From NCBI GenBank assembly GCA_008508345.1, contig QNGE01002656.1:1-64000 (forward strand): DNA of 64,000 bases, given 5' to 3'. Under the pieces are notes generated by a model, which saw only the letters and a program-made list of their open reading frames with translations, was not told the origin of the DNA and did no database searches. This DNA comes from Paragonimus westermani. Its lineage: Eukaryota; Platyhelminthes; Trematoda; Plagiorchiida; Troglotrematidae. A program made the position numbers and the translations under genes. The first letter of the stretch is position 1. Each line of letters opens with the position of its first letter. Positions 1-55,400 of the stretch are shown piece after piece.

Positions 1-880
1 CTCGGTGTGAACTTGGATCGTTAGCGAACGATTCAATAGCTAGGTCTATTCGTAATTGTGCAAGCGCGGTCACCCACTGTATATGCATTCCACGAAGCTA
101 CAAACACAACAAAGGATGTACTTAAGGTACATTACAGTCAGTTAAAACCAGCTCAACCGCCGGATGGAGCTCAAATGCGGACCCTGCCGATACCACGTGG
201 CAGCGTTCCGATCGCCAAGTAGACAGTCGAAATCCAAGCCCAAGGTGGTTGCAGCAACGTTGGCTGTACCGAGGCACTTGGGGCAGTGCCACATTGTAAG
301 GGGACCAGTGTGAAAATACGGTTGGCGGCATGCGATTCGGATTAGCCTGTCACAGTGACCGAAGCCAAAGGACGCCTGCGCTTAGCCATCACTGCAATTG
401 GCTTGCGCTGCACCAATTGCAGTTCCACCAACACACCACATATCCAGTGTAAACCCGAAGTAATAAGACTGGGAGGTGTGCCAGTGGGGCCTTTGAGCCC
501 AGCCGGCCAATGATGGATGGCCACTTGATTGGCCAATAAGGAAAGGAAACCCCTATCTCTCGGAAACTGAACTGAGAGAGGCTGCAATGACGAGATCTAT
601 ATTAAGAAGAAAGATTTTTTGAATTGTAATAAAAGAAGCGTTGCAGTATAGGAGTGCAGTTTAGTGCAACCTAAAGAAGATAGGGATCAAAAGCAAATTT
701 CTCATTGGACTATGAAAAGCCAGGCAGACCATTCATCATATATATTACATCAACAAAGCCGAAGAAAAGAATGGGTAGAAGACCACAGACACTCAAGTTC
801 CTGAAAAGAAGAGCGGATTAATTGTCAATGACTAGGATGTTGGCCAATGCGGTCATTAACAGAAGTAGAATAAATATACC
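1..880. other. No supported gene
   Basis: Open frames on the minus strand at 122-331 and 342-587 have no recognisable motif, no splice context and no repeat similarity that I can see. I regard them as chance. Confidence 0.5.
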
Positions 881-9856: not shown

Positions 9857-12800
9857 TTACAAGGAAGAAGATTGACGTATATTTTTCCGGGATATCAGGG
9901 TTGGCAAGGTGGAACCCTTATTTCTTAGACTATATGGAGGGCTGTGTTGTAAGTGGACGGTGAACGCTGTGGTAATCACATTTGAATATATGAGTTTACA
10001 CAGCAGCGTCAGGTTCAACTTTAGTCTACGCAGCCAAAGTGGATCAACACCAAGTTTGCCACAACGTTGTCTGTAGGTGAGCAAAGAAGAATTTCCTAAT
10101 AAGCTTCTGGCAAACGATCGCTGAATGTTTTCCAACACAATCCTATCAGACTTGCGTAGATGACAGTAAATGAAAGTGCAATACTTGAGTTGAGGCCGGA
10201 CACACATTTTGTAGAGCGTCAGCTTCGCAGCTGGTAGACTGAACGTCTTTCTGATACAGCCTATTGTTCTTTTAGTTTTTGCCACCTGGAGGCATACATG
10301 TTCAGAGAAATTGAAGGAGTTTGAGCACCTTATTCCTAGATCTCTGACCGGAGTGGCTCTATCAATATTACAACCATCTAGTAAGATGAAGCCATGGGGT
10401 AGTTTACAACCATAAGTGATGATGTTTGATTTGTTCGCCGAGAACGACATCAGCCGTGGTCTGCACCACAACTGCAATTACGCTAGGTCGTATATTTTGT
10501 AGACAAAAATTGATGTTACTACTCCGGTGGAATGTGTAAACCATTTTGATATCGTCAGCAAACAGAAAGGGCTCGCCCTGTGTAATAACGTCGCATAAGT
10601 CATTTATGTACATTAAGAAGAGCAATGGGCTCAGAACGCTTCCTTGGACCACCCCGCTAGCCACTGGTTTTGGTGTTGAGCAGTGCTCCCCTATTTTGAC
10701 TGTTTGAGTGAGACCTTCAAGGTATGACGACAGCCAGCTATACGAGGGATCTTGTATGCCAAGAGGTTTATAAGGCGCACGACCAAACACTTTTCGTATG
10801 TCCAAGAGTGTGATAATTACCGCAGTTCCTGCGTCGACGGACGTCGATATATGGTTCAAGAATTCTAGCTGACATGTCATACAAGAGCGCTTACTAAGGA
10901 AACCGTGCTGTGAGGGGTTTGTGAGGTTGTGTCCTTAAGAACTCCGCCGTGTGCACCTTTATCATCCTTTCAAACATCCTCGAGCAGATTGACTTGTGGC
11001 TGATGGGACGATAGTTACTAACGTGCTACCTTGGACCACTCTTGTGACGAGGCATAATGATTGAGGTTTTTTACTGAGGAGGAAAGGTGCTGGATAGAAG
11101 TGATAGTTTGAACAAATTTGGTAAGAGGATGGGTATATCCTCACCTGCCTGCCTGATGACCGTTGGTGGGATACCATCTGGTCCGGGATGGATTGAGGGC
11201 ATGATGCTAGCTAACTGTAAACGAACACTTCGAACATCGATTAGAACATTACTCAAAACTTTATTTGTTTTCGATGTGATATTAGCAGGTAATGGGGGTG
11301 CTTTCTACGCTAAACGAGGCAACGAAGTGTGGGTTAAAGATTTCGCACATCGCTACGGGATCACCGACAACAGTTTTGTCTTTGGGAGTGATCATTCTTA
11401 TAGCAGGCTCTCTCATGAAATTTCTCCGTCTCATCCGTTGCACTAGTTTTGTGCATCTCTGCTCACCACGGAGCGCGAGTTTCTCCTTGTCTATATGACG
11501 GAGTTACGTCCGACGTTTTGTGCGTTCAAACATTTCGCTCATTTGCATCATCAGGGAAAGCCTAGTGTTCTTACGTACCCCGACTTAAGCAATTTAAGTC
11601 TGTCGGTCTTTTTTGCAGTGAGGATTTCCACTTGTACATACGAACCGACGAGTTTTGATGTAATGGGGGCCAAAACGGCAATGCGAAACGTTGGATTTCT
11701 GATAACTTCTCCGGCCGCTATGCTTGGGTGTGATGTGCGGACGGAGGTATTTCATTTTTAGGATCTTAATATGGTGAAGAATACATTCCAATCTATTAGT
11801 TTGATCGAACAGTGGAATACAACCCTCGCTTTTCCCATACTGAAATGGAACAGACATTTGCCGACAGTTCGGACGCTTCTTGTGAATTGTCAGATAATAT
11901 ATATCCCTACAGATGAAATACCTACGATAATTATAGAACCCACACTGTGCCCCTTTCTCGGTGGCTTCAGGGCATGTTGGTTCCAACCATTCTGCTGAAT
12001 GCATGGAAGGAAATCGGCCTGTTTTTCTGGAGCAGAGAATGAGGTCCAGGATATATCAGGCATGTTTAATTCACCGCCTTCTATTTTGTGTTCACAAGGC
12101 ATGTTGGACTATGATTCACTATCTCCACAATTTCAGTCAAATCACTGCTCGCAGCGTTAGGCGGTCTGTAGATGCATTCTATAAGTAGCTCGCGGAAACC
12201 AATAGAGACCATTAACCACGAGTCCTCCGGTATATGAAGTATAGACTCATCAAGTGTGCCTGCGGAAAATTGCTCTTTCAGGTAAATGATTCATCCAGCT
12301 CCTCGTCCTGTGAGATGATCCTTACGAAACACGTTGATCACGCTCTCCTGAGTGTGTTTCTCACAAATACGTCGAGAAATATAACATTATTATTATTATC
12401 CTACGATGCTCATCTGACCGTCTGGGATATCAGGAGTGTACCACTTCTCAGTTATGAGAATGATATGCGGATCAGATGAAAAGACGAATTGTTTGAAAAT
12501 GTGCATCTTACCAACCAACGATCTTGCGTTCATTATTCATACAGATACAGCAAACAAACTGCTAAAAACTTCAAGACAGATGGGCAGTGTGTTGCGAAAT
12601 ACCAAATGGAAAGACCCGATCTAGGGAATTTACCGAGTTTCTGCTCATATTCGAGTGGATGTCGTAAAAGTTTGACCCCATGATAGGAAGTGCTGGAAGA
12701 GTGCCATTATGGAAAGATGACAGTGGGATTTGGGGAGGGGCGCCAGGTGGCGGTTGATGAAATACCGGGGGGATATATGCGCTAAATGGACTGGTTTGGC

Positions 12801-16405: not shown

Positions 16406-19400
16406 GTATTTTTTATCATTTTTCTTTGTTTGATGGAGTACGCTTTCAGATGGATGAGAAATTCAAGGCGTCTATGGATGAAAACTTAGACGCTTCTCTT
16501 TCTTCTGTTTTGAAGAATTCACGAGACACTTCTCAGAGGAATGAATTTCCCAGTGACTTAGTTTCGAAATCGATCAGAGAAGTCAAATCTTGTAAGTTTT
16601 TTCAATTCCTCGGCTTTATTTGAAGCTAAGTTGTTTGTTTGATCTCAGCTGAAATTAGATAACCGATCGTCTGTTGGGTTTTGGTTGAGGCTGAACCAAT
16701 AAGAGTCATAACTTCTACAATAAAACGAAGAATAGACTAACAATGTTAGAACGTTAAACCAAAACACTGGATTTGACGTAAACCGAAAACTTTTTTTTGA
16801 TTGACAGAGAAATTCTGACGAAACTGGTTCCAATATAATATGCGTTGAAAAGAATGTTGTTACAGTTTGTTGGAACTGATCCAACAAAATAAAACACTGT
16901 CAGTGATCACAGTCGACAATCAATCGACAATGGAAGGCCAGAACTCGATCGAGTTTCTATCACAAAGAATGGTTCCATCTATACTGAGCAGTGGAATTGC
17001 GCGTAGCTTCAAAGAATAGCGTTGTAATGAAGTTTGAAAATCAGGCTCTCGCTCTTGGGTCGCAGCTAAATCACTGAGGCCAACGGATGTAGGCATGACC
17101 AAGGTTGCAGGGACGCGTGAAAGAGCGTTAGCAACAGGAGTAAGAGCACCTAAGACATACCGCATGTCGCAGGTGAACTGTGAAGTGTAGTCCAGGTGTC
17201 TGATCTCCCTGGGGAAGTACCTGTCCGATGAAAACCCGAGTGCATATACCAAGGGCTTATGAACAGTGAACACAGTGAAAGGACGACCTTCAAATGCATG
17301 GCGTAAATGACGGATACCTCGGTAAATAGCAAGTAATTCTCTTCCAAACTTGCTGTACCGGGATTCAGCCGGTAACAAGCGCTTGGAGAAGAAACCTAGG
17401 GTTGCCACTTGTGGTCGACAAACTGTTGTAGTACGGCACCGAAAGCTACATCCGACGCATCAGTGAAGAGATAAGTTGTGGCCTGGAAGTTTGGATGGTC
17501 CAGAAGAGCAACGTGGGATATGGCTTTTTGGCTCCAATAAAGCCATGCATGCTGCGCCCGTAAAGTTGAATTTACATCTATCGCCCCCGGTTAAGTCCGT
17601 AGGGGGTTGCAGGAGTTGCACACAGTAGGGTAGTAACTAGCCAGGCCGACATAACGTCAGGCTGCTTGAAAGATGTCGGCTCGGGGAAATCTTTGACGGC
17701 ACCTACATTTGCTGGAAAAACTTGATTACCGAAAGCGGAAATAATGTGGCCTGAAAATTCTCTGCTACCTTTTCAGAGTTTGCACTTGTATGCGTTGATA
17801 GTTATTCCATGCTGGGCTAACCTAGCGAACAGGGAATGAAGTTGCTGCATATGTTCCTCCTCGGAAGATCTAGCCACTAACATCATCTAAGTGGGGGTAG
17901 ACGAAATCCAAGCCTCAGCACACTTCATGATTGAAATGCTGGTAGTTTTGTACAGCGTTATTAAGGCCAGATGGCATTCGAATAAATTGGAATAGACCAA
18001 AAGACTTGATAACAGCCGTTCGGGGGATACCCGCCTCCTCTACTTGGACCTGGTGATAGGCATGAACCAGATCAATCTTACTGAATACAGTTTTGACAGA
18101 AAAGCAAGCTCCCAAGTTCTGTGTGTGTGTGACAGAATACCTATCAGTGACTGTGACCTTGTTGAGACCACGATGACGTCAGTCGCCTGAATTCTTGGGG
18201 ACCATGTGAAGTGGAGGGGCCTATGGACTTTTGGAAGAACGGATTATCCTGAGTTCGAACATGTTTGAACTCCGCCCTAGCTACTTCAAGTTTGGCCGGG
18301 GCCAGATGTCTTGGTTTACAGGATACTGGTAGGACTTTAGTCGCAATGTGGTGAGTGTAAGTAGGAGTGACTGGAAGAGGCTCGTTTGTAGATCGAACGG
18401 GCTGTACAAAAACTAAAAATACGGATATGTAGAGCTGAGGGGTTTCAGGCTGAAGGATAGGAGGACTGATGGCTTTTGAGTATGCCTGGATCCCGTTGAC
18501 ACTATTTTTTATGGGAATCGACCAGTTTCCGTCTTCGCCTATCGACCACGAGGTCGGGGTGCTGAAGAAATCTGATCCCTACAATAGCGAAGGGTACGGC
18601 TGCAATTGCGAAAACCCAGCGAAATATTCGCAAAAGACCGAGGTCAAGCGTGAGTGAGCGTTGACCGTAGGTGGAAATGGGTGTACCGTTAGCGGCACGA
18701 AGCATGGGTGAGGAAGAATAGTTCATCTCGCCGAATCTTGGAAGAATCACGCTGTCTTTCCTCCCGGTATCGACCAGGGACGTGATCCCAGAACTTAAAT
18801 CCGTTACGTGGAAGAGGTGACTGTTACTGAGGGTGTCGGATGCGTTTGTTGCCACTACGGGCCGGCTTGGTAGTTTCCCTGGCTGAATTATTTACAGGGG
18901 GCGACGCAACGCCTTGCCAGCTTGCCGAACTTGTTATGGTACCAGCACAAGTCGCTAGATGCCCGAGGGCGTTTACGCTAGGACTTACTCCGACGTCGAC
19001 GCGAAGAGGAACGTGTTCTAAGGCGGGCGAAATCTCGCTGAAGTGCTGCTATCTTCGCCCAAACCGTGCGCCAATCATCTGGGGGCGGACGGGATGGTCG
19101 CTGTGAAGCTGAAACCGCTGCCGCACGACTCGTCACCATCGTAATATAGGCAGGGGAAACGGTGCAAAAACGGTCCTGAATCTCTTCTGCGAGTTGTGCT
19201 GCGTCTAACAAAGACGGGGACTTGACTGCTATGAGGATAGCTTGTATGTTGATAGGGAGACGTTGCATCCACGAATCCTTAAGGAGTGTCTCCTCCATGG
19301 ATGAGGGGCCAAGCAGCTGTTCCATTTGAAGCAATAGGCCAGGCGGTCGCTTGTCTCCCAGCTACAGATTTCTAAAGAGCTGTTGTAGCCGTGATCTGTC

Positions 19401-40400: not shown

Positions 40401-43400
40401 AAACAGACAGACGGGATTAGAGGACAGAGCTACGAATACAATAAATGCATGCAATTAAGATAAAGTTATTGTAACTTAATATGCCTGGTTCGGTAAATCG
40501 ACTACTTACCAGGACAGCTGCAATGTCGACATAAGTTATTTGCTTACTTGATAGCTTTTCAGCAATTCTCAGAATGTATTCCTCTGACTGTCACTATAAC
40601 GAACGGAGTGTTTTTAAAGAAGCTGCTCAGAGTCTCATTTCCAGCATATGGCTGGCGGCTGAATGGGCTGGATTTCGCTCCTCTGCCGGTAAACTTATGC
40701 TAACAATCTTCTGCTGTGCACAAAGTTATTTTCGAACGTGCTCTTAGACCTGCATGTTCGATGGGCGACTAGCCTTTTCAACGTAGTAACAGTCGTAACT
40801 ACCTGACATAGTCATGCCAAGCGTACAGGCGGAGGTCTTCGCTATTCCTCTACGGAAACCTGGATACGGCCTAACATCACGGGGACCGTGTGACCAGCCA
40901 TATCAGTGGCTGGAAGCTCTTCCAAATGCAACCGCTTTGCTGTCGGTGGCAAGATTACATCTTTAGCAGATTACTAACAATTTTATATTTTCCAAGTTGA
41001 ACATCACTCATATTTGATCGCAGCCTCCGCATTCAAACAGACTGTCCAATCGACCCCTTTCGAAAAGAAACACTAGACTCGAGTTTCGGTCTTCTTATAG
41101 CTCGTCAGCGGTGCGTATCTTTTCGACGACCAGCATAAGAAGTGCGGCCACGCTTTCGTGAGACAACCGTGTGGGCCGCTGCGTCATTCACCGCATACTA
41201 GGCGCGATCAGATCACCATACGACAAGCCAAGCGACAAACACCAATCACAAATGCTGTTCATTCTGAAATTAGCCGGTTCCCCGACTACCCATCAGTAAT
41301 CGGAAATATCGTTCAGCAGGTTTATTGAGGTCGGAGATTTCGGCCTGTCTCGGAAGTCATAATCACGGGGCTATCGATTGGAGTTAACAGGACAGTTACT
41401 GTGCCTGTTCTCAAGACGATCGTGCAATCAGAGTATTATCGACAAGCATGTGTAGCTTGGCGTTCACGTATGGTGGTCTGATCGCGCCTAGCATGCGGTG
41501 AATGACGCAGCGGCCCACACGGTTGTCTCACGAAAGCGTGGCCGCACTTCTTATGCTGGTCATCGCAAAGATACGCACCGCTGACGAGTCTAGTGTTTCT
41601 TTTCGAAAGGGGTCGATTGGACAGTCTGTTTGAATGCGGAGGCTGCGATCAAATATGAATGGTGTTTGACTTGATATCAACCAAATATCCGACTGCTCAT
41701 CGGAGATCCCATACTTTTATTTGTTTCCCCTTTTTATATCGTTCCTACTCATCGACCCGGAATTAACTTTATCATTATCAGAAGCAAACGCAACCCGAAC
41801 AGTAATACTGGCGAGTTCTTTGAATTTGCTCATTTTGTCCATATCTACGTATGGTGGGCTTTGTTTCATGTGAACATCTCTTGATAACCATGCTTACTGA
41901 CTTTGGTCTTTGAATTAGTTACCCTGGGGTGATTCGCGACGTTCGAAATTAGATGACCAAAGTAGTGAACAGTTCTTTTCAAATGAATGGATCACAGCAG
42001 CACCAGACCACAGTCTGGACGCAGTCGTTGACTCCATTCATCAGCATCCAACCGGAGTGACGAAATCACAATATCAGAAAAGACGGATTGCAAACAAAGG
42101 CCAAGACAGTTCATCAACATATCTTCAGGTAAGTTCAACATTCATATTCACCAATTTGGATATATTTTGGGAACCATGCTCAGTGGCCGATATACAGCAG
42201 GACACCTTTGTATAAAACTGACGAAATGCCCAGTTGCCTATGCAGATTACGCATTCCACTTGATTGATTGCTTAATTAGTCGATAATTGATTAATTGAAT
42301 AGTTGATGTTCGCCTGTCCTTGCCACAGCCGGGATTTGAACTCCGGTCACGCGTTCATAAAGCAACCGTGTTGACCACTGCGCCCCCAATTGACCTCTTA
42401 TTAGGCACGACCAAACCAGCAAATCTGAACGCTCAACCACTTTCGCCTTGGCAAGGATATGCACTACTGACGAGCTCTGATGAGAGCGAAACTCGAGTCT
42501 AGTGCTTCTTTTCGAAAGAGGCTGGCTGGAAAGTCTATCTGAATGCGAGGGCTGCGATCAAATGTGAGTGATGGTCAGCTTGAAAACAAGCCAAATCCCC
42601 GACTACTCATCAGTAATCGAAAAGAAGAACTGTTGGTTTTCCCGTAGTACTAGAGACAGGTCATGCTGTTCTCTAGTTTTACTGTACCACTTGTGAACTC
42701 TGTCACGAGGTTATATAGCTCTGTCGTCAAAACACTAAGCGGCATATGGCACTTTTCAGCTTTTGGGCCCCATTAGTGGCGTATATTTACTTCCGGTTAA
42801 TATATATTGCTGTCATTTGGTTCCTTTAAGACGCTGAAAATCACTTAAAATGCCTACGACGAGAAGCACCACATTAAATTCTGCCTTAGGAGAAACAACT
42901 AGTAATAGTGAACCTTATTTTCATACTCTACAGATGAACCTTGAATAGCATGTGGATAGTCCTGGATCCCATTACCCAGGACCAGCCGTATTTTTGTTAC
43001 CAACAATGTTGATTCCCGCCCCCTCTTTCAGGATGAGTAAAGTAAAAACGTCGGTGTCTACCTTATATTATATCAATGTACAAGGACCTAACGTCATATT
43101 GGCAAGATAGTACTCAAAACTAAGGTTGCCATTTTTCGTGCATTACTCGGAATCGGCTGAATCTATTGAGTAGAGAAATCTATCATTAACCGCTGGAAGT
43201 ATGCATTCCAACATTATCATCATGAAAATAAATGAATAACAAAATATTAATGTCCAATCCATGTACTCACAAACTGGTTGAAATTTTGCTTGCGGTCTTG
43301 TTAACGCAAAGTTAGTTTCCTTGAACGTGGTGACAGCACACACCGTAAAGCAGTCTCAGTTGTTATAATTCATTCCCAGCTTACGGCTATTTTGTGGGTC

Positions 43401-46400
43401 TCCATGATCAGGGAACGGTTCATGTACCCCCTGTTTTTGAGGTAGGTTTGGGAGGAACTCTGTGGAATAATATTTGGATCGAAGTTCTTCTGACGTATTT
43501 TTTGAAAGCTGATTGGATTTACGCCTGTGCTCAAACTGTACGTGTGATTGACCCCCCATTTCGGTTCATTGAACTTTTATTAGATTATATCATTGCGGGA
43601 ACACCACGGGTAAATCTGAAACCAATCACCGCTGATGGTTAATTTTATTCTAAAGAGGGTGTTCCAGAAAATGTCGACGAATCCAACAGGTCAGCTCATT
43701 CTCATGTGTAGTAAACCATTTTCACTGTCCACCACTGTCTCATTACCACCATCATGGACATCAATAAATAACTGGTCCTGGCTGCCGCTAAACAGCCAAA
43801 CAACCATTAAGGAAGGAACAAGTACGGGGGGACGAAGAGAACGGGGAATAAGGTCAACTTGATTAATAAAACAACCACGTTCGTAATCAAACATTCAAAA
43901 TCAAGGTGTCTGTAACTTGAAAACAAACAACCAAGCTATGAGTTAAAGTGTGCCTTCGTCAACAAGACAGCTTCCTTGAGTCGTTCACTGCATCGCACCT
44001 TCAATTGGATAACCCGATGAACTAATGGCGAATTTCACTTCACTGAGTCCGATTGACCGCCATCTCACCCAACGTCTCCAACCACCGACTCTGTGAGTCC
44101 CGAGTGCCTCAGCCTGCGAGACAAACTCGACCTACAGTGGCCAATGCCTCGACGAATGACTTCACTTCCCTACACCACGTCACCATTTGTCCACCCCACA
44201 CCGTACGCCAGTCAGCCGCTGAGTCGACAAAGAGCGCTCGCTGTGACAGACGACTAACTAGCGTCCTCACTTCATGGCCTCATCACTAAGTCTGTGTACG
44301 GTTAAAGACGGAACGACAAAGTTCGGTTGACACTGTCACAATCATTTACATTACTTATATGCGGTGAATTCAGGCTTGGATAAGAGATGAAGTTAGGGAA
44401 GTAGAAACCACTTTTGTTTCAAGGAACATCGTCAAACTCTTCAACCATATCCGTGGTACTGGTTCCAAACCACAGTCTGTCACTGAGGCTCTTAGTGAGG
44501 TAGACGGTGCACACGTCCACACTAAGTCCAGAAGGTTAGACCGGTGGCTGGAACGATTTGACGGCCAAACCAGCTGGTCTACTGTTTGTGTAATGTTTTC
44601 ACCACAAACTTTCATTACAACACGTGGGGCAGCAGATTTAGCATCACCCACCAAGACTGAAGTCCGCAACTGCATTCCGGTTCTCAAAAGTAATAGGCCA
44701 GCTGGAGCACATGAATTCATGTCANAAAACAACCACGTTCGTAATCAAACATTCAAAATCAAGGTGTCTGTAACTTGAAAACAAACAACCAAGCTATGAG
44801 TTAAAGTGTGCCTTCGTCAACAAGACAGCTTCCTTGAGTCGTTCACTGCATCGCACCTTCAATTGGATAACCCGATGAACTAATGGCGAATTTCACTTCA
44901 CTGAGTCCGATTGACCGCCATCTCACCCAACGTCTCCAACCACCGACTCTGTGAGTCCCGAGTGCCTCAGCCTGCGAGACAAACTCGACCTACAGTGGCC
45001 AATGCCTCGACGAATGACTTCACTTCCCTACACCACGTCACCATTTGTCCACCCCACACCGTACGCCAGTCAGCCGCTGAGTCGACAAAGAGCGCTCGCT
45101 GTGACAGACGACTAACTAGCGTCCTCACTTCATGGCATCATCACTAAGTCTGTGTACGGTTAAAGACGGAACGACAAAGTTCGGTTGACACTGTCACAAT
45201 CATTTACATTACTTATATGCGGTGAATTCAGGCTTGGATAAGAGATGAAGTTAGGGAAGTAGAAACCACTTTTGTTTCAAGGAACATCGTCAAACTCTTC
45301 AACCATATCCGTGGTACTGGTTCCAAACCACAGTCTGTCACTGAGGCTCTTAGTGAGGTAGACGGTGCACACGTCCACACTAAGTCCAGAAGGTTAGACC
45401 GGTGGCTGGAACGATTTGACGGCCAAACCAGCTGGTCTACTGTTTGTGTAATGTTTTCACCACAAACTTTCATTACAACACGTGGGGCAGCAGATTTAGC
45501 ATCACCCACCAAGACTGAAGTCCGCAACTGCATTCCGGTTCTCAAAAGTAATAGGCCAGCTGGAGCACATGAATTCATGTCAGCAATTTTCAAAGAAGTT
45601 GGAAGGAATTTATTGAGGGTCTAAGTGCGGTTGTTTCAACTTGTGTAAATGATTGATAACACCCCTCCCCCTATTGAGCTCACTCGATAATAACTCCCAT
45701 GCTCAAGAAGGGAATTAGAGGCTGTTGTGAATATCATAGGGAAATTAGCACGACCTCAGTCATTACTAGGGCTCTAACATCCATCATACTCCATCGACTC
45801 ACTGTGGCTTGGGAGGAAAGCATTAGTAAAGAACAGGCAGGATTTCATCCCGGGCGGGGATGTATTTGTCAAGTTTACACTCTTCGCCAAATTCTGGAGC
45901 AGCGTCATGTATATCNNNNNNNNNNNNNNNNNNNNNNNNNNNNNNNNNNNNNNNNNNNNNNNNNNNNNNNNNNNNNNNNNNNNNNNNNNNNNNNNNNNNN
46001 NNNNNNNNNNNNNNNNNNNNNNNNNNNNNNNNNNNNNNNNNNNNNNNNNNNNNNNNNNNNNNNNNNNNNNNNNNNNNNNNNNNNNNNNNNNNNNNNNNNN
46101 NNNNNNNNNNNNNNNNNNNNNNNNNNNNNNNNNNNNNNNNNNNNNNNNNNNNNNNNNNNNNNNNNNNNNNNNNNNNNNNNNNNNNNNNNNNNNNNNNNNN
46201 NNNNNNNNNNNNNNNNNNNNNNNNNNNNNNNNNNNNNNNNNNNNNNNNNNNNNNNNNNNNNNNNNNNNCACTCGGGCTCAGTGTTATTGTTGTTTGACTT
46301 AGTTTTCTATGAAGTGAGTGTACTTAGTGACGCGGGGTAGTGAAGGCCGTGAGGAGGCTGTCTTGTCGATGACACTTTACTTCCACTCCTAGCTTGGTTG

Positions 46401-49400
46401 TTTGTTTGCAAGGTGTGGATGCCTTGATGCTAAATGCTTGAATATAGACGTGGTTGCTTTCAGTAGTTAGGTTCTCTCCTCTCTCCTTCTATTTTCTTCT
46501 CTATTCTCGTAGTCTTTTGTTTTTTACTTCGTGGTTTCGTGACAGCCAAGCATCAGTGTGAACCACTGGTATTGCAGTTTATGATGATGATAATGGCTTT
46601 GTCGTTAATCGTACTGTCAAGTTAGAACATTGTCCTGCAGCTGCCTATCCTAACTCCGTGGGGCGGTTCGTCTCGTCTAGCTCACACATGGATAATGTAA
46701 AACAGGATGGACTTGTAGACTTTAGGTGCTTGCTCCACGGTATATTTGTGGAAATCTGAATTCTGTGACTGAACGCTTGCTCTGAGCGTTTCACTCCAGC
46801 CGCCAGACTTCATGGCTACCCTCTAATTGTTACACAGGTTGCCACCATTCGAACTTTCCAGATTTTTCTTGCTTTCTTCTATCCAGCCTCTCGGGCGATT
46901 ACGACGACGGCGGAATTTTACGTTGGTCAAAATATCGAGACGTCTGTATTTATCAACAGACGGACGACTGGTTCACCGGCTGAGATCCTTGTGGGCACAT
47001 CTTCGAGCTCAGTAATGGCCACATAAGTCCGAAGCTCCGCTTGCGCAACTGTGGTGGTATTAGTCTGCACCAATGACATCTAGTCATCCGGGTGCAATTG
47101 AGGCGGTTTCGTTCAACTCTTGAACCTGGAGCATCGGTGTCATTCGAACTTGTACGAGCCAGACGGTCTTTGTGTCTCTCGTTCCACCCGTTTACACCTC
47201 AACTGTATGATCTCGTTCACTTTCGAAGTCCAGATAGGCCTCTTCACACATCCCAAACTGACACCGATATATCTTAATCTGGCGGTGTTAAGTTTCGTAA
47301 AGAGATGTGAGGCTTATTACACCAGATTGGACTTGGGTTTCATCAATAATCATGCTTACCTAAAGCAAGCTATATTAACGAGTAAATGGGTGTAGGGTTG
47401 CACAACGGATTGTGACTGAAGAAATCCATAATGATCTGCAAGATCCAGGAATGCTCGTAAAAAGAATGGATTGGACGAACTCCTCAATAGGAGTTCGACT
47501 AATGATTTCTGAAAGGCTACGGTCATTCGGTGTCGGTAACCTCACTAATTTGGTGTCAGCCTTGTGACAAAGCCGGATTGTATTCCGGTGTGGCGTCGGA
47601 TTTAGTTGTAGCAAGTGCCAGCGTTAAACGAATTACTTAAATATGTGGCGCGTTGAAGCAAACAGGCTACAAGCTGAGCCGAGCCGGCCAAACAGGAAAA
47701 CTGAGGCTTTGACATCAATTGTATTCCTTCATTTTACTGGTGTTTCTTGTCTATAAAATGACCCACGGAAATCCAAAAAAATGGAAATTTTCCTTGTCTC
47801 ACAAGTTGTGCCTTCGATTTCATTTCAGAAGTTAGTAACTGTTATCAGTACTGTAAAATTTTCACATATCTCCAACGGAGACCGTGAAAAGAGAGTAAAT
47901 TTTGCGTAGGTTGCCCGCATTTCACAGCTTCAAGTACAGAAAAAATTAACTTTAACCAGGGCTGCTGACGTTAGATTTCACCAGTCATTTTATCTTCATA
48001 GCGTGCACCTGCCGAAGTTGAGCACAATAATGTTCTGATCAAAGATATTCACCACAATTAACCACGTTTGATTTTCGAATGGAATCCTCACAATATCCCT
48101 ACCAACCTTCAAAACAAGGTGATTGTGACTTTAAATTCAGAGTTTCCGGTCTCTATGACTTCACCTTCGTTTCCATTCACAATATGATACAGAATGGTTC
48201 ACACACACACAGAAGGCAGAAGTTGAAACATTTCAAAAGTGACCCGTGTGATCGTCCTAGTAAAAGGTACTTGATGAAAAGGACGCTTTTGTAGTTACAG
48301 TCTTAGTAAATCGTACCTGACTGCAAATTTGGAACATTGATTTTGAAAGGTTCTTGTATGATGGAGTTAAAGAGCTTGCGTCCATACCAAAGTACAGTTA
48401 GAATTGCTGCTTCACGTTGGCATATGTTACGATACTACTTTATATGTAGCAGTCGACAAAACTAACAAATAACACTTCTGGACTTAAAAACCAACACCAC
48501 TCACCCAGCTGATTATGGCAGTGCCTTATATACAGAAGCAATTCACATGTGACATATTCTTTATTTCTCGTTAGTTACTGTGTGTAGTGGACTAGAATCC
48601 AGCTGAATGTCCACTGTACTTCGGAAAGAGGCGTAGGTCGTTTAACTTTCTCCAGCGTTTTTTAAAACCATCGTCATTGTCAACATCAATGACGGCGCAG
48701 AATTTGTGGCGAGTATTGAGCAGAGGAATCTAGTGAGTCTGAGATGCATAACGGAAGTAATTAGCAGATAAGTTTCTGATGAGTAGTCAATGATTTGTTT
48801 GAGCTGTCAGGTGTGAGGTGAATAGCGCAGTGGTCAACACGGTCTCCTCATCCGAGGCGCGACCGGAGTTCGAATCCCGGCCGTAGCAACCATATATGCA
48901 CTACTGACAGGCTCCATTCAGAGCGAAACTCGAGTCTAGTGCTTCTTTCCCAAAGATGCTAGCTAGAAAGTCTATCTGAATGCGGAGGCTGCGATCAAAT
49001 GTAGGTGATGGTCAACTTGAAAATAATTTGCTGTTTTAACTCTGACGTTTGTTGTTTCTGTCGTAAAATGTGTGGTCAAAATACATACACTACGAATGGT
49101 AGCAACCACGAAAACCACTGGAATGCCTCCGTGAATCTTGGTCAGTTAACACCTGCTAAATGTTTTACCGCAACTTATATTGTTTAAGTTGACCATCACT
49201 CACATTTGATCGCAGCGTTCGCATTCAGATAGACTTTGCANTGAATGCGAACGCTGCGATCAAATGTGAGTGATGGTCAACTTGAAAATAAACAAAATCC
49301 CCGACTACTCATCAATTATATTGTTTACTTGACAAATCATTCTGTGATCAGCCTTGGGGATGAAAAAGTGGCTTGCAAGCACATACTACTCTTTAAACAT

Positions 49401-52400: not shown

Positions 52401-55400
52401 TTTTCTTAATCCTGTGTAGACGTTGATGGAAAAAAAATCGAAAAAATCACATCTACTCTCAATCAAAAAAAATTAAAACAGCGCAATAACGTAAACAGTT
52501 TGTTCCGAATAAATGGTATTGAACGAAAACCTATGGTAGTAACTCTGAACAAACCCCATTCTTTCATTCATTTCGTTAGCAAGACAGGAATATTCCATTC
52601 CTTTCAAAAACAGTTGGTGAAATGGTACGTTTAAATTGCTTAACGAATAGGTACACAAGTTATTTAATGAGCAAAAGCGTTGATAAACTGCTTAAACACT
52701 ACGCATCAGCTATTTGCTTACACCATCATCATTATCACCATCAACGTCATCATCGTCAAGGTAATGTGACACAACGACACAGTTATGGTTCATACTGATG
52801 TTTTACCGCCACATAACCTTACAAAGAAAAGTAAAGTCTAGCTAAAAAGCAAAACGCCTGTTTCCGAAATCTGTTTCCCACAAGTTCTGATTATTAAAGT
52901 TTTACGATATTGCTTAAGTTTTGCGTTACTAGTAGGAACTTTGATTACCGATCGATAATAAATTCACACCCGTGCATAACCTTTATTTAACGGTAGCCCC
53001 AACTGAACTGAAAACAGGAGGACAAGTCCCACGTTACCTGGATGATGAAGGGTTGTATGTCGGTCGATCACCCTATGTGGTTCCGTCGAATATTCGGCGA
53101 CTAGAAAATCGAATCATACAGCAAGCAACCGTCGATGCTGCCAAAACGAACGTGTTGACAATTCAACCTAAATCTACTGATGTCCTACAACCAGATGGGG
53201 AAATGCAAAACCAGAAAAAAAAACTAATTCAGGTGGATTATTCGATTACAACGGTCCATTCTACCTTCAAGTTAACTTACACTAGTTTCATATGCAACCA
53301 ACATACTTTATTCGTGGAGGCCATGAATAATTAAATCGGTTCACTGCAACTAGTGATAAAGTTAACTTTTTACTAATGTAACGTATTCTAGCCATAATGT
53401 TATTTGCCAAAGAATATTGTAATACGTTGTTTTGAAATAAATCTATGTTTATGTCATATCTCACCTGTGCTCCATTTTCATGCCATTAATGTCGGACTAC
53501 ACTCAGGCGTAAAGCGACACACCAAAACAATTTTACTGGATAATGAAACAAAGAATTCAGTCGACAAACAAACATTGTGATTGTTTGGTTTGAATAAGTA
53601 ATTCGACGGAAAACAAAACACTGAATAGTGTCTCTCACACTTGTTTTTTCTACTGTAGTTCTTAAAATATCTGTACTCCACCTTGGAAGGTCAGTTTTGT
53701 TTATTAAATTTCCTTTGGTTTCTATATTTTTACGTGAAGCCGTGGTTTGGAGAAGACGGAAAACTTGCGCTTCAACCAAATCCAACCCGAAGCATACCCA
53801 GCCGATTTCCGCTTTGGGACGACCAATTTAATCCTATCCCGGATGCACTGAAGACGGATTACATTCCAGTAAGCGGAAAAGGGGACACACTACAAACGTC
53901 TTGGGTTTAGTTGATAGCAGTCACTGATGACTGCAGCCTGTAGATTAAGAACTAACAAATTCACATTTGCAGCAGCCGAACGAACAAGGTGTGCTCACGA
54001 CTAGCCGAAATGGTGTCCTCTAAGGATAAGTTCTCGTTTTGCGTTCATGGCTGATATGGGCTTGGCAGTGTGTAAAGAAAACATACGCCAGCAATTTTTG
54101 TTTGTGCCCTAAACTTTCCCTGTCTGATTTCTGCCGGCTTATAGCTTCACTAAAACTGATGGCACGATGAGTTGTTGTCTCGGGGTAAACAAAAGAAATT
54201 GGTCACTGACGGAAACCAAACCTTAAGTATAAAGTGTCATTATCAATGGCAACTCGTTCGTTATTTTTTATTTACTTATCTATTTATATTTTATTGACAC
54301 CACTTCTTACGGTCAGCTCAGTTTACTTTCTGTGTGGTAATTTCTCAAAATAAACATGGTATCACTAAAACTGATGAACGCTGGGTTATAAGTCGTAGTC
54401 TGCGTAAACGTGTAAACATTTTAAGCGAGAACCATTGTGGTCGTACAAACGTCAGTACATAAATTTGTGGATAGTGCCTGTTCCTTTACTCGGTTGCAGG
54501 AAGCCAGTTTGGTCTTGGAACAAAGAGTACACAGTTTCGCAGATACCAGTAAACACCGCCGATTATTGATTACTTTCGGCTGCAATGTGTTTTGTTTGCC
54601 AATGTTGCATCGAGTTCTTCGCTTGTTTTCAGAACATCCCAATGTGAATCTTGTAGAGGCCGAGGTTGTTACATCACTTCTTAAAGTTTGTCTACACGGT
54701 TACTGTCTGTTGAGTTCTAGCAAGATCGAAACTCCAACCAGTTGCTTTTTTGGAGGAAACTGGCTGGAAATTCCTTCTGAATGCGAAAGCCGTGGTCAAG
54801 TATGAGTAATGTTCAACGTGAAATTAAGTAATTGTTAACAGACCATGTCTGAGTAGAGGTTGGATAACATTTACCCTTTCAAATATAATTCACCTGGCTT
54901 CTAACAGGTTATGTGTGACTGCAGCTTTGTATTCTAATTTCAACTGAAAATCTTGTTTAGTGATCTTAGTACGTTCACTCAGCGTTGTGTTGCTTGGTGT
55001 TTTAAGATTAATTGTTCAGTACTCATTCTTTGACGCTTGTCCACTTCGCAGCCTTTATCCCGTGAAAACCTGCGACATTACCTGGCATCCACCCAAAAGT
55101 GCAATGAGTTGCCCTACCCGAAGAATGCAACCCTCGGAGGACGGCTTCGACGAGCACCTGGTATTGGAGTACTTCATGGTTCCAGTGTTCACTTACTTCA
55201 GGTTGAACTACACCTGCTCAAATTTGATTTCCATCCTCTTTACAGCTGGGAGCATGTTTACGCACAAAATCTTCAGGATGTTGTACAAGCTTATGAGAAC
55301 GAAGTGGCACGAGACCAAGTCAATGCATGCATTCAGCGGGTAAATGAGACTAATATTTATTGCTGCCGTTACAAATGAAGAAAAGACATATCAGACATTA

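Follow-up and report, generated by a model that had tools for sequence, protein, structure and literature searches.

Organization of the locus

The DNA analyzed here is a stretch of 64,000 nucleotides, referred to as the window, which carries a complete hammerhead motif on its forward strand. The motif belongs to one of several copies of a short repeat, for which one genomic unit of locus L035 (431 nt, family A) was taken as the reference. This unit is composed of a leader (positions 1 to 218), A and B boxes near positions 231 and 273, the hammerhead (303 to 347, with predicted cleavage after position 341), and a tail that extends to position 431. The copies and parts recognized in the window are as follows, with similarities given relative to the reference unit.

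40986..41218, minus strand: old copy, 77% (unit alignment); its ribozyme at 41070-41114(-) keeps the core motifs intact but lacks some pairs in stems I and II
41279..41701, plus strand: old copy, 72%, head-to-head with the 40986..41218 copy at 60 nt (unit alignment)
42317..42446, minus strand: inverted left arm, unit 173..299 (leader with the A/B boxes), 84%, placed 5' to 5' with the right arm
42332..42383, minus strand: tRNA-like A-box/B-box pair on the strand opposite the ribozyme (box-pattern scan)
42445..42623, plus strand: right arm, unit 287..431 and then 1..34 (end of the box region, ribozyme, tail, and ~30 nt of the next unit), 95.5%
42461..42505, plus strand: type I hammerhead with intact core and stems, predicted cleavage after C42499 (Rfam, motif scan, covariation in families A and B)
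48812..49026, plus strand: second copy, in the usual order of boxes, ribozyme, and tail, 85% (unit alignment)
48825..48877, plus strand: A-box/B-box pair of the second copy (box-pattern scan)
48898..48942, plus strand: hammerhead remnant with mutated core (CTGACAG), expected to be inactive (sequence comparison)
49178..49240, minus strand: left arm of a tail-only head-to-head cassette, unit 369..430 (unit alignment)
49242..49314, plus strand: right arm of the tail-only cassette, unit 382..431..23 (unit alignment)
54712..54827, plus strand: old 5'-truncated copy, 74%, unit 314..431 (unit alignment)

The copy at 42461 is a cassette-like locus with an intact ribozyme and an inverted, more diverged promoter half. 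Similarity to the relatives compared does not exceed 87% for its left arm, against 95.5% for the right arm, which indicates that the two arms differ in origin or age. A target-site duplication is not evident by eye at this locus, and one of its two outer ends, at unit position 299, lies outside the preferred 3' ends described below. The first-pass annotation had placed this ribozyme within a SINE that carries A and B boxes, which does not hold for the copy itself: the box-bearing part (42332-42383) is on the opposite strand, and the ribozyme is therefore not downstream of its own boxes. Since the promoter half is both inverted and more diverged, the copy is probably dead or passively transcribed. 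In the 48.8-kb copy, which had been singled out for its clear boxes, the A and B boxes do precede the ribozyme in order, but the core is damaged. The three other ribozyme-bearing copies examined in the window are all degraded; in the 41279..41701 copy, a deletion near 41581 took away stem II along with some of the core.

The hammerhead motif

The motif at 42461-42505(+) presents stem I (GCACTA/TAGTGC), the core elements CTGACGA (N7 = C) and GAAA, stem II (GCTC/GAGC) capped by the loop TGATGA, and a stem III made of the palindromic ACTCGAGT, with cleavage predicted 3' of C42499. Hammerhead cleavage follows the triplet rule NUH. The CUGANGA...GAAA core and an NUH triplet are both present at these positions. 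A passage of PMC8490949 gives the hammerhead core in the same form, CUGANGA/GAAA.

The Rfam family RF00163 (Hammerhead_1) aligns over the full length of 42461-42505 with 32.4 bits (E value of 2.3e-6 for the 401 bases searched; gathering score, 34), and RF02275 (Hammerhead_HH9) scores 31.9 bits (E value of 4.2e-4 for the 64-kb window; gathering score, 52). The core and stems of both families can be aligned to the window copy, with the outer part of stem I of HH9 aligning partly, and the copy scores below both cutoffs. Applied to the whole window, the gathering scores return no match, so that a default annotation would overlook the ribozyme. A full-motif scan (core, stem I of at least 5 pairs, stem II of at least 4, the first two pairs of stem III, and the cleavage triplet) retrieved 42461-42505 as the sole site in the window and nothing in 200 dinucleotide shuffles. 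A looser pattern without the stems gave six matches, compared with 1.28 expected. The folding energy of the motif is unremarkable to moderate, with z values of -2.03 for 45 nt and -1.00 for 75 nt.

By sequence and covariance, 42461-42505(+) is confirmed as a real type I hammerhead, for which self-cleavage is predicted. The initial claim of an intact hammerhead in 45 bases is thereby upheld, given the complete type I motif, the RF00163 alignment, and the unique full-motif match. The Rfam covariance search over the window and the genome, put forward in the same annotation as a check, gave a divided outcome, as the motif aligns and has genomic relatives that reach 47.5 bits but itself falls below the RF00163 gathering score.

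Abundance and families in the genome

The genome assembly spans 823 Mb in 9,701 contigs. It contains 4,951 exact occurrences of the 21-base sequence GAAACTCGAGTCTAGTGCTTC, 2,591 of the commonest 33-base catalytic stretch, which is one loop base off the 42461 copy, and 3,978 exact places of a 29-base tail stretch; the same patterns read backwards do not occur. The genome search with RF00163 yielded 136,546 candidates at first look, of which 74 were scored, and at least 72 matches with an E value of 10 or better, 35 of these 72 at or above the cutoff and the best at 47.5 bits. Since the 42461 copy is absent from the 72 matches and the candidates at first look were so numerous, 72 is a lower bound. 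Prokaryotic control genomes gave matches at an E value of 10 in 11 of 14 cases, none of them above the cutoff. Searches of IMG/VR and GTDB contigs retrieved no relative and no exact match.

The first 30 loci were sorted by eye into three families, as follows: A, to which the window copies belong; B, with GTGGTG...CACCAC; and C, with CTCCAC...GTGGAG. The hammerhead stems of families B and C differ from those of family A and are mostly complementary. A perfectly palindromic stem III occurs in 9 of 10 aligned rows of family A, 11 of 19 of family B, and 1 of 3 of family C. The samples consist of the first places in contig order or of the best-scoring ones and are not random draws.

The 431-nt unit and its boxes

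Longer copies run into a second unit, with position 431 fused directly to position 1, and form partial head-to-tail multimers. Among the first 100 listed occurrences of the 33-base stretch, four (counted by eye) are followed by a second one exactly 431 nt further on the same strand, and many family A copies are monomeric or truncated. The unit is non-coding, falls within 150 to 450 bp, carries a type I hammerhead, and occurs in tandem copies, all of which characterize metazoan retrozymes.

The A/B-box pattern has two matches in the window and none in 100 shuffles. At the box region, no tRNA was called by ARAGORN in 16 loci or by Rfam in five loci and 402 nt of L035, and the window stretch shows a weak, sub-cutoff match to mascRNA, a tRNA-like family (E value of 5.7). 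The lone ARAGORN call among the 16 loci, at positions 948 to 1028 of L043, is located outside the element. The boxes are preceded by the leader of ~218 nt, and copies reach beyond the point where Pol III would be expected to start, some of them into the previous unit. In a tail-anchored sample (20 of the first 30 listed places of the tail stretch), none of 23 5' ends falls at unit positions 215 to 225, near the Pol III start, and 5 of the 23 lie upstream of the boxes.

The description of the repeat as a tRNA-headed SINE is thus correct in part. It is a high-copy repeat of SINE size with tRNA-like A and B boxes, but a long leader comes first, and "tRNA-headed" is an overstatement, because neither program calls a tRNA despite the box pattern and the mascRNA match is weak. 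The likeness to schistosome Sm-alpha that had also been suggested is supported, since an intact type I hammerhead lies in a SINE-sized, high-copy repeat with A and B boxes, comparable to Sm-alpha and Sj-alpha. Judged from sequence, the repeat is a non-coding, non-autonomous retroelement of the Sm-alpha or metazoan-retrozyme kind, in which the hammerhead, whose cleavage is predicted, forms the catalytic part.

Covariation and conservation of the ribozyme

In an alignment of 29 sequences (10 from family A and 19 from family B), 26 of which came from the covariance-model search, which favors paired stems, standard pairs occupy 92.2% of the pair cells, compared with 17 to 41% when partners are slid. 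Cells changed on both sides number 53, against 20.4 in shuffles, and none of 500 shuffles reaches 53. Two of the five covariation measures are not above the shuffles, namely, both-side-changed pairs (7 versus 6.5) and further pair types (17 versus 15.9). The covariation comes from stems I and II, whereas stem III hardly varies. Conservation of the paired positions across copies, on which the first-pass annotation had made its interpretation depend, is therefore seen in the proportion of paired cells and in the both-side cells but not in these two measures.

To look for selection, 44 ribozyme units of family A were compared, their loci having been retrieved with the tail stretch or with the whole 48.8-kb copy, a query that includes its own degraded ribozyme. 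The 12 core positions are changed in 10 of 528 cells, compared with 72 of 1,452 elsewhere (P = 0.002), and variants present in at least three loci are confined to N7 and loop II. The ribozyme block as a whole is not better conserved than its surroundings, with 0.961 versus 0.954 to 0.959 in the whole-element set and 0.925 versus 0.914 to 0.958 in the tail set. An undamaged core together with undamaged stems is found in 24 of 36 units from the whole-element set, in 5 of 9 from the tail set, in 15 of 33 from the 21-mer set, and in 1 of 4 in the window. Selection on the ribozyme of propagating copies is supported, though not proved, by these data.

Anatomy of the insertions

Among 133 aligned segments of at least 40 nt, 43 have their 3' end at unit positions 421 to 431, 52 at positions 21 to 40, and 38 elsewhere, as placed by BLAST ends that are accurate to a few bases. 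Two 3' end classes, with peaks ~28 nt apart, hence hold 95 of the 133 ends. The 3' ends examined terminate in ...GAAAATAA or ...CAGTAATC, without a long A-tail. The 5' ends are variable and scattered across the unit.

Inverted neighbors within 1 kb are head-to-head in 21 of 22 cases (11 of 11 and 10 of 11 in two lists of 100 genome places), and the single other pair sits between two cassettes in L082. Abutting arms show the same bias, with 34 junctions of the (-,+) type, none of the (+,-) type, and 2 of the (+,+) type; 32 of the 34 are distinct, the other two being places counted a second time, and three lie within the window. The gap at the junction ranges from -7 to +2 in 26 of the 34, as though the arms had been joined at short overlaps. 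Close pairs of family B, taken from 20 covariance-model loci, comprise nine (-,+), no (+,-), one (+,+), and one (-,-). An inverted GATTACTGATGAGTAGTC in L042, considered as a terminal inverted repeat of a DNA transposon, proved to be a short head-to-head arm.

Direct repeats of at least 7 bp flank both outer ends of 16 of 57 inserts built from segments of at least 88% identity, compared with ~0.7 expected (1.2% of mismatched end pairs), and the target-site duplications span 7 to 15 bp. Ten of these 16 inserts are head-to-head cassettes, each inside one duplication, and so were probably inserted as a single event. Both outer ends belong to the 3' end classes in 8 of the 10, the exceptions being L067 and L086. 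The flanks are mildly AT rich (63% and 67% over the outermost 10 bases, against ~57% in the window). The two arms of a cassette are nearly alike in L038 and L103 and as different as unrelated copies in L033, L057, L061, and L073, as well as in L049 and L070, where they lie inside a duplication. Arms that are unlike each other and have no duplication could instead reflect nested insertion, and some inverted repeats could be assembly errors.

Cleavage and the insertion template

The 5' ends do not accumulate at the predicted cleavage site, as only 1 of 23 in the tail-anchored sample falls within 5 nt of it, and a 5' pile-up was accordingly discarded as a genomic trace of cleavage. Nine other tail places keep the 21-mer intact, which puts their 5' ends upstream of it. 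Multimers were compared for the alleles of their units. In L044 (unit positions 227 and 269) and L049 (367, 392, and 409), the two units carry different alleles, each of them found in several other loci, inside a 12-bp duplication, a pattern that would not be expected from a single monomer circle. The units of L035, L038, and L044 differ less than the mean between loci, yet in each case another locus is closer to one of the units. Rolling copying of one monomer circle was rejected as the source of all multimers, with five of eight multimers against it. Neither the 5' ends nor the multimer comparison provides genomic evidence of a cleaved or circular RNA as the insertion template.

These 5' ends and multimer alleles, together with the differences between arms, suggest that the inserted RNA may often be uncut, in agreement with the in vitro result for Anolis described in the next section. 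A ribozyme core can apparently persist in a family in which insertion does not begin at the cleavage site. The 431-nt unit folds with a z value of -2.58 (1 of 100 shuffles as low) and 53 leader-tail pairs. A conserved leader-tail rod was considered and rejected, since 91 of 204 changes keep the pairing, against 83 predicted by the substitution spectrum, with four both-side changes pairing.

Mobilization of the element

The insertions present traits reported for Penelope-like elements (PLEs), having two 3' end classes ~30 nt apart and head-to-head cassettes within one duplication. According to sections of PMC11167929, the purified protein of an Anolis PLE cuts and extends both strands, and synthesis starts at two adjacent internal sites, which explains an optional genomic tail of 30 to 40 bp; its hammerhead cleaves only with the protein and is dispensable for insertion in vitro. 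Rotifer Penelope elements are described in parts of PMC3846280 as having pLTRs, an optional 31-bp tail, and inverted repeats that are mostly head-to-head, and Penelope is given in a passage of PMC8166898 as ~10% of two diphyllobothriidean tapeworm genomes, which would be relevant here if the host belonged to that group.

A genome search with PF01541 gave one GIY-YIG match among the 150 of 281 candidates that were scored, and PLE endonucleases are possibly too divergent for this model. Judged by eye, the match resembles host SLX1 rather than a PLE, and no autonomous PLE emerged from this search. No recurrent partner sequence abuts the copies in the 66 upstream flanks compared. A partner element with a common tail was rejected, as abutting matches in these flanks occur only within one locus (L082, L022) and the matches across loci (L052-L072 and L082-L072, 70 to 73%) do not abut.

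The following route is proposed. Transcription would presumably be driven by the internal Pol III-type boxes or else read through multimeric loci, and the ribozyme would trim the resulting RNA, as suggested by the conserved core and by the complementary stems in separate families. A Penelope-type reverse transcriptase would then copy the RNA into new sites, as the insertion anatomy suggests, with an internal start of synthesis at either of two sites separated by ~28 nt. Extension would take place from both ends of the broken target, and the two cDNAs would be joined 5' to 5', often at short overlaps, to give a head-to-head cassette inside one target-site duplication. It appears rather probable that this is an element of the Sm-alpha or retrozyme kind whose RNA is trimmed by its ribozyme and inserted by a Penelope-type reverse transcriptase. 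More tentatively, such elements may be SINE-like parasites of PLEs and not of LINEs, that is, hammerhead RNAs with A and B boxes whose tails are read by the PLE reverse transcriptase from both ends of a cut target. A single insertion would then often contain head-to-head copies of two RNAs, which in some cases would belong to different subfamilies. Under the parasite reading, the arms of L049 and L070, which differ like unrelated copies inside a duplication, would represent two RNAs of different subfamilies in one insertion. The palindromic stem III, best preserved in family A, could help to pair two RNAs.

Some of the same features are found in an ordinary SINE mobilized by a LINE, in which the hammerhead would merely hitch-hike and the inverted 5' parts would result from LINE twin priming. 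The internal A and B boxes, the 5'-truncated copies with preferred 3' ends, and target-site duplications of 7 to 15 bp all agree with such an origin, and the 42461 copy resembles a product of twin priming, with inverted unit 173..299 followed by direct 287..34 and an overlap of 13 nt. Nevertheless, two 3' end classes and cassettes with 3' ends at both outer sides are unexpected from twin priming, the copies pass the expected Pol III start and in some cases enter the previous unit, the 3' ends have no long A-tail, and the arms at 42461 diverge unequally (about 85% versus 95.5%), unlike those of one twin-primed event. LINE mobilization is therefore considered unlikely. Quite improbable, too, is a rolling-circle retrozyme, in which the ribozyme would cut multimers to a linear 431-nt RNA, a ligase would close it, and repeated copying of the circle would generate multimers. 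Unit size, tandem multimers, and the type I hammerhead fit the animal retrozymes of PMC7229834, insofar as sections of that paper describe them; the tandems are of exactly 431 nt, and three of the eight multimers (L035, L038, and L044) have units that are closer than the between-loci mean. The other five (L032, L033, L049, L064, and L069) have units at least as different from each other as copies from other loci are, L044 and L049 each hold different alleles, both seen in several other loci, inside one duplication, and 5' ends do not cluster at the cleavage site. These points against rolling-circle copying are compatible with circular RNA arising as a by-product.

The hammerhead might also be a decaying passenger with no present function. 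This would account for the many broken copies (with 24 of 36, 5 of 9, 15 of 33, and 1 of 4 intact in the respective sets), for a ribozyme block conserved no better than its surroundings, and for the 42461 copy, which its own boxes do not read. Against this, variants common to at least three loci avoid the 12 core positions, the stems differ between families and yet pair, and the motif is kept in three families, which makes a passenger highly improbable. With insertion by a Penelope-type enzyme as the preferred reading, the two 3' start sites and the double-ended, head-to-head insertion seen in the sampled copies bear on what moves animal ribozyme repeats, because both are reported PLE traits; the question of the mover is thereby directly testable with purified PLE protein.

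Comparison with known ribozyme repeats

Hammerheads in tapeworms are not reported in the top-ranked literature matches, which are mostly open-access text, and the word "hammerhead" is absent from PMC12471100, PMC12582326, and PMC12274263, which treat cestode and flatworm repeats and genes. In schistosomes, passages of PMC2770079 and PMC8490949 describe Sm-alpha as a tRNA-Gln-like part joined to a hammerhead. In these descriptions, Sm-alpha and Sj-alpha resemble the present element in being short non-coding repeats with thousands of copies, a tRNA-related part, and a type I hammerhead, active in theirs and predicted to be so here. Sm-alpha elements are called as tRNA-Gln-TTG by software, according to the same excerpts, whereas no tRNA is called in the element described here, and its unit of 431 nt compares with 335 bp given in one passage for W36.2, which is similar to Sm-alpha. 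The head-to-head cassettes and the two 3' ends have no counterpart in the sections of PMC2770079 and PMC8490949 that give an account of Sm-alpha. A palindromic stem III, and hammerheads in dimeric form, are already mentioned in a passage of PMC3088659.

The PLEs that have hammerhead pLTRs share with the element its partial tandems, an optional 3' tail of ~30 nt, head-to-head inverted copies, and the hammerhead, as described in parts of PMC11167929 and PMC3846280. In contrast to PLEs, the element has no open reading frame, measures only 431 nt, and contains A and B boxes. Metazoan non-LTR retrozymes, in the sections of PMC7229834 that describe them, also have a type I hammerhead, a non-coding unit of a few hundred nucleotides, tandem partial copies, and duplications of more than 4 bp, and the same 2020 paper names PLEs there as no more than a strong candidate for moving animal retrozymes. 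From the retrozymes so described, the present element differs by its Pol III-like boxes and by an insertion anatomy that points to PLEs.

Head-to-head cassettes and predicted folds

One of the cassettes in which two inverted arms abut head to head lies at locus L103 of the P. westermani genome, as follows:

L103, 28-202 (-), first arm of the cassette
L103, 204-514 (+), second arm of the cassette

Both arms carry the same compensatory change in stem I of the hammerhead, from A-U to G-C, which suggests that one template RNA gave rise to both. A head-to-head cassette composed of tails only also accounts for the long hairpin at 49175-49297 of the window; its matches to miRNA families in Rfam were weak and all below the cut-off. 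For the 431-nt family A unit at L035:1502-1932(-), structure prediction gives a long leader-tail rod around the boxes and the ribozyme (z of −2.58), and a search for covariation in this rod found no support.

Hammerheads of families B and C

The other two hammerhead-bearing families were located as follows:

L001-L006, L008-L010, L013, L014, L016, L019, L022, L024, L025, and L027-L030, family B elements
L011, L017, and L020, around 1501-1543, family C hammerheads

The elements of family B are of the same type as those of family A, and the family is older. Its members are roughly 70 to 80% alike, head-to-head arms are present here too, and a box-like stretch is visible by eye upstream of many of them. 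One copy occurs at both L029 and L030, in inverted orientation and about 10 kb apart (G000:C345:231462 and 241958), an arrangement that may reflect a large palindrome or an artefact of assembly. The family C hammerhead of L011 scored 47.5 bits against the HH9 model (RF02275), for which the cut-off is 52, and inspection by eye revealed another tRNA-like stretch upstream of it.

Other repeats and genes

The remaining features are as follows:

Window 10404-10934 (-) and 16920-17459 (-), fragments of reverse transcriptase (RVT_1) and RT RNase H from other retroelements
Window 43868-44167 and 44726-45025, identical 300-nt repeats, 858 nt apart
Window 44368-44778 and 45226-45624, ORFs
L111, 1458-2171, GIY-YIG gene

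The two ORFs, one with each repeat copy, are for the most part the same frame, and a run of N at approximately 45.9 to 46.3 kb adjoins these duplicated sequences; the repeat pair with its duplicated ORF is possibly an assembly duplication. The GIY-YIG gene, the sole match to PF01541 reported in the genome (150 of 281 candidates scored), looks like the host SLX1.
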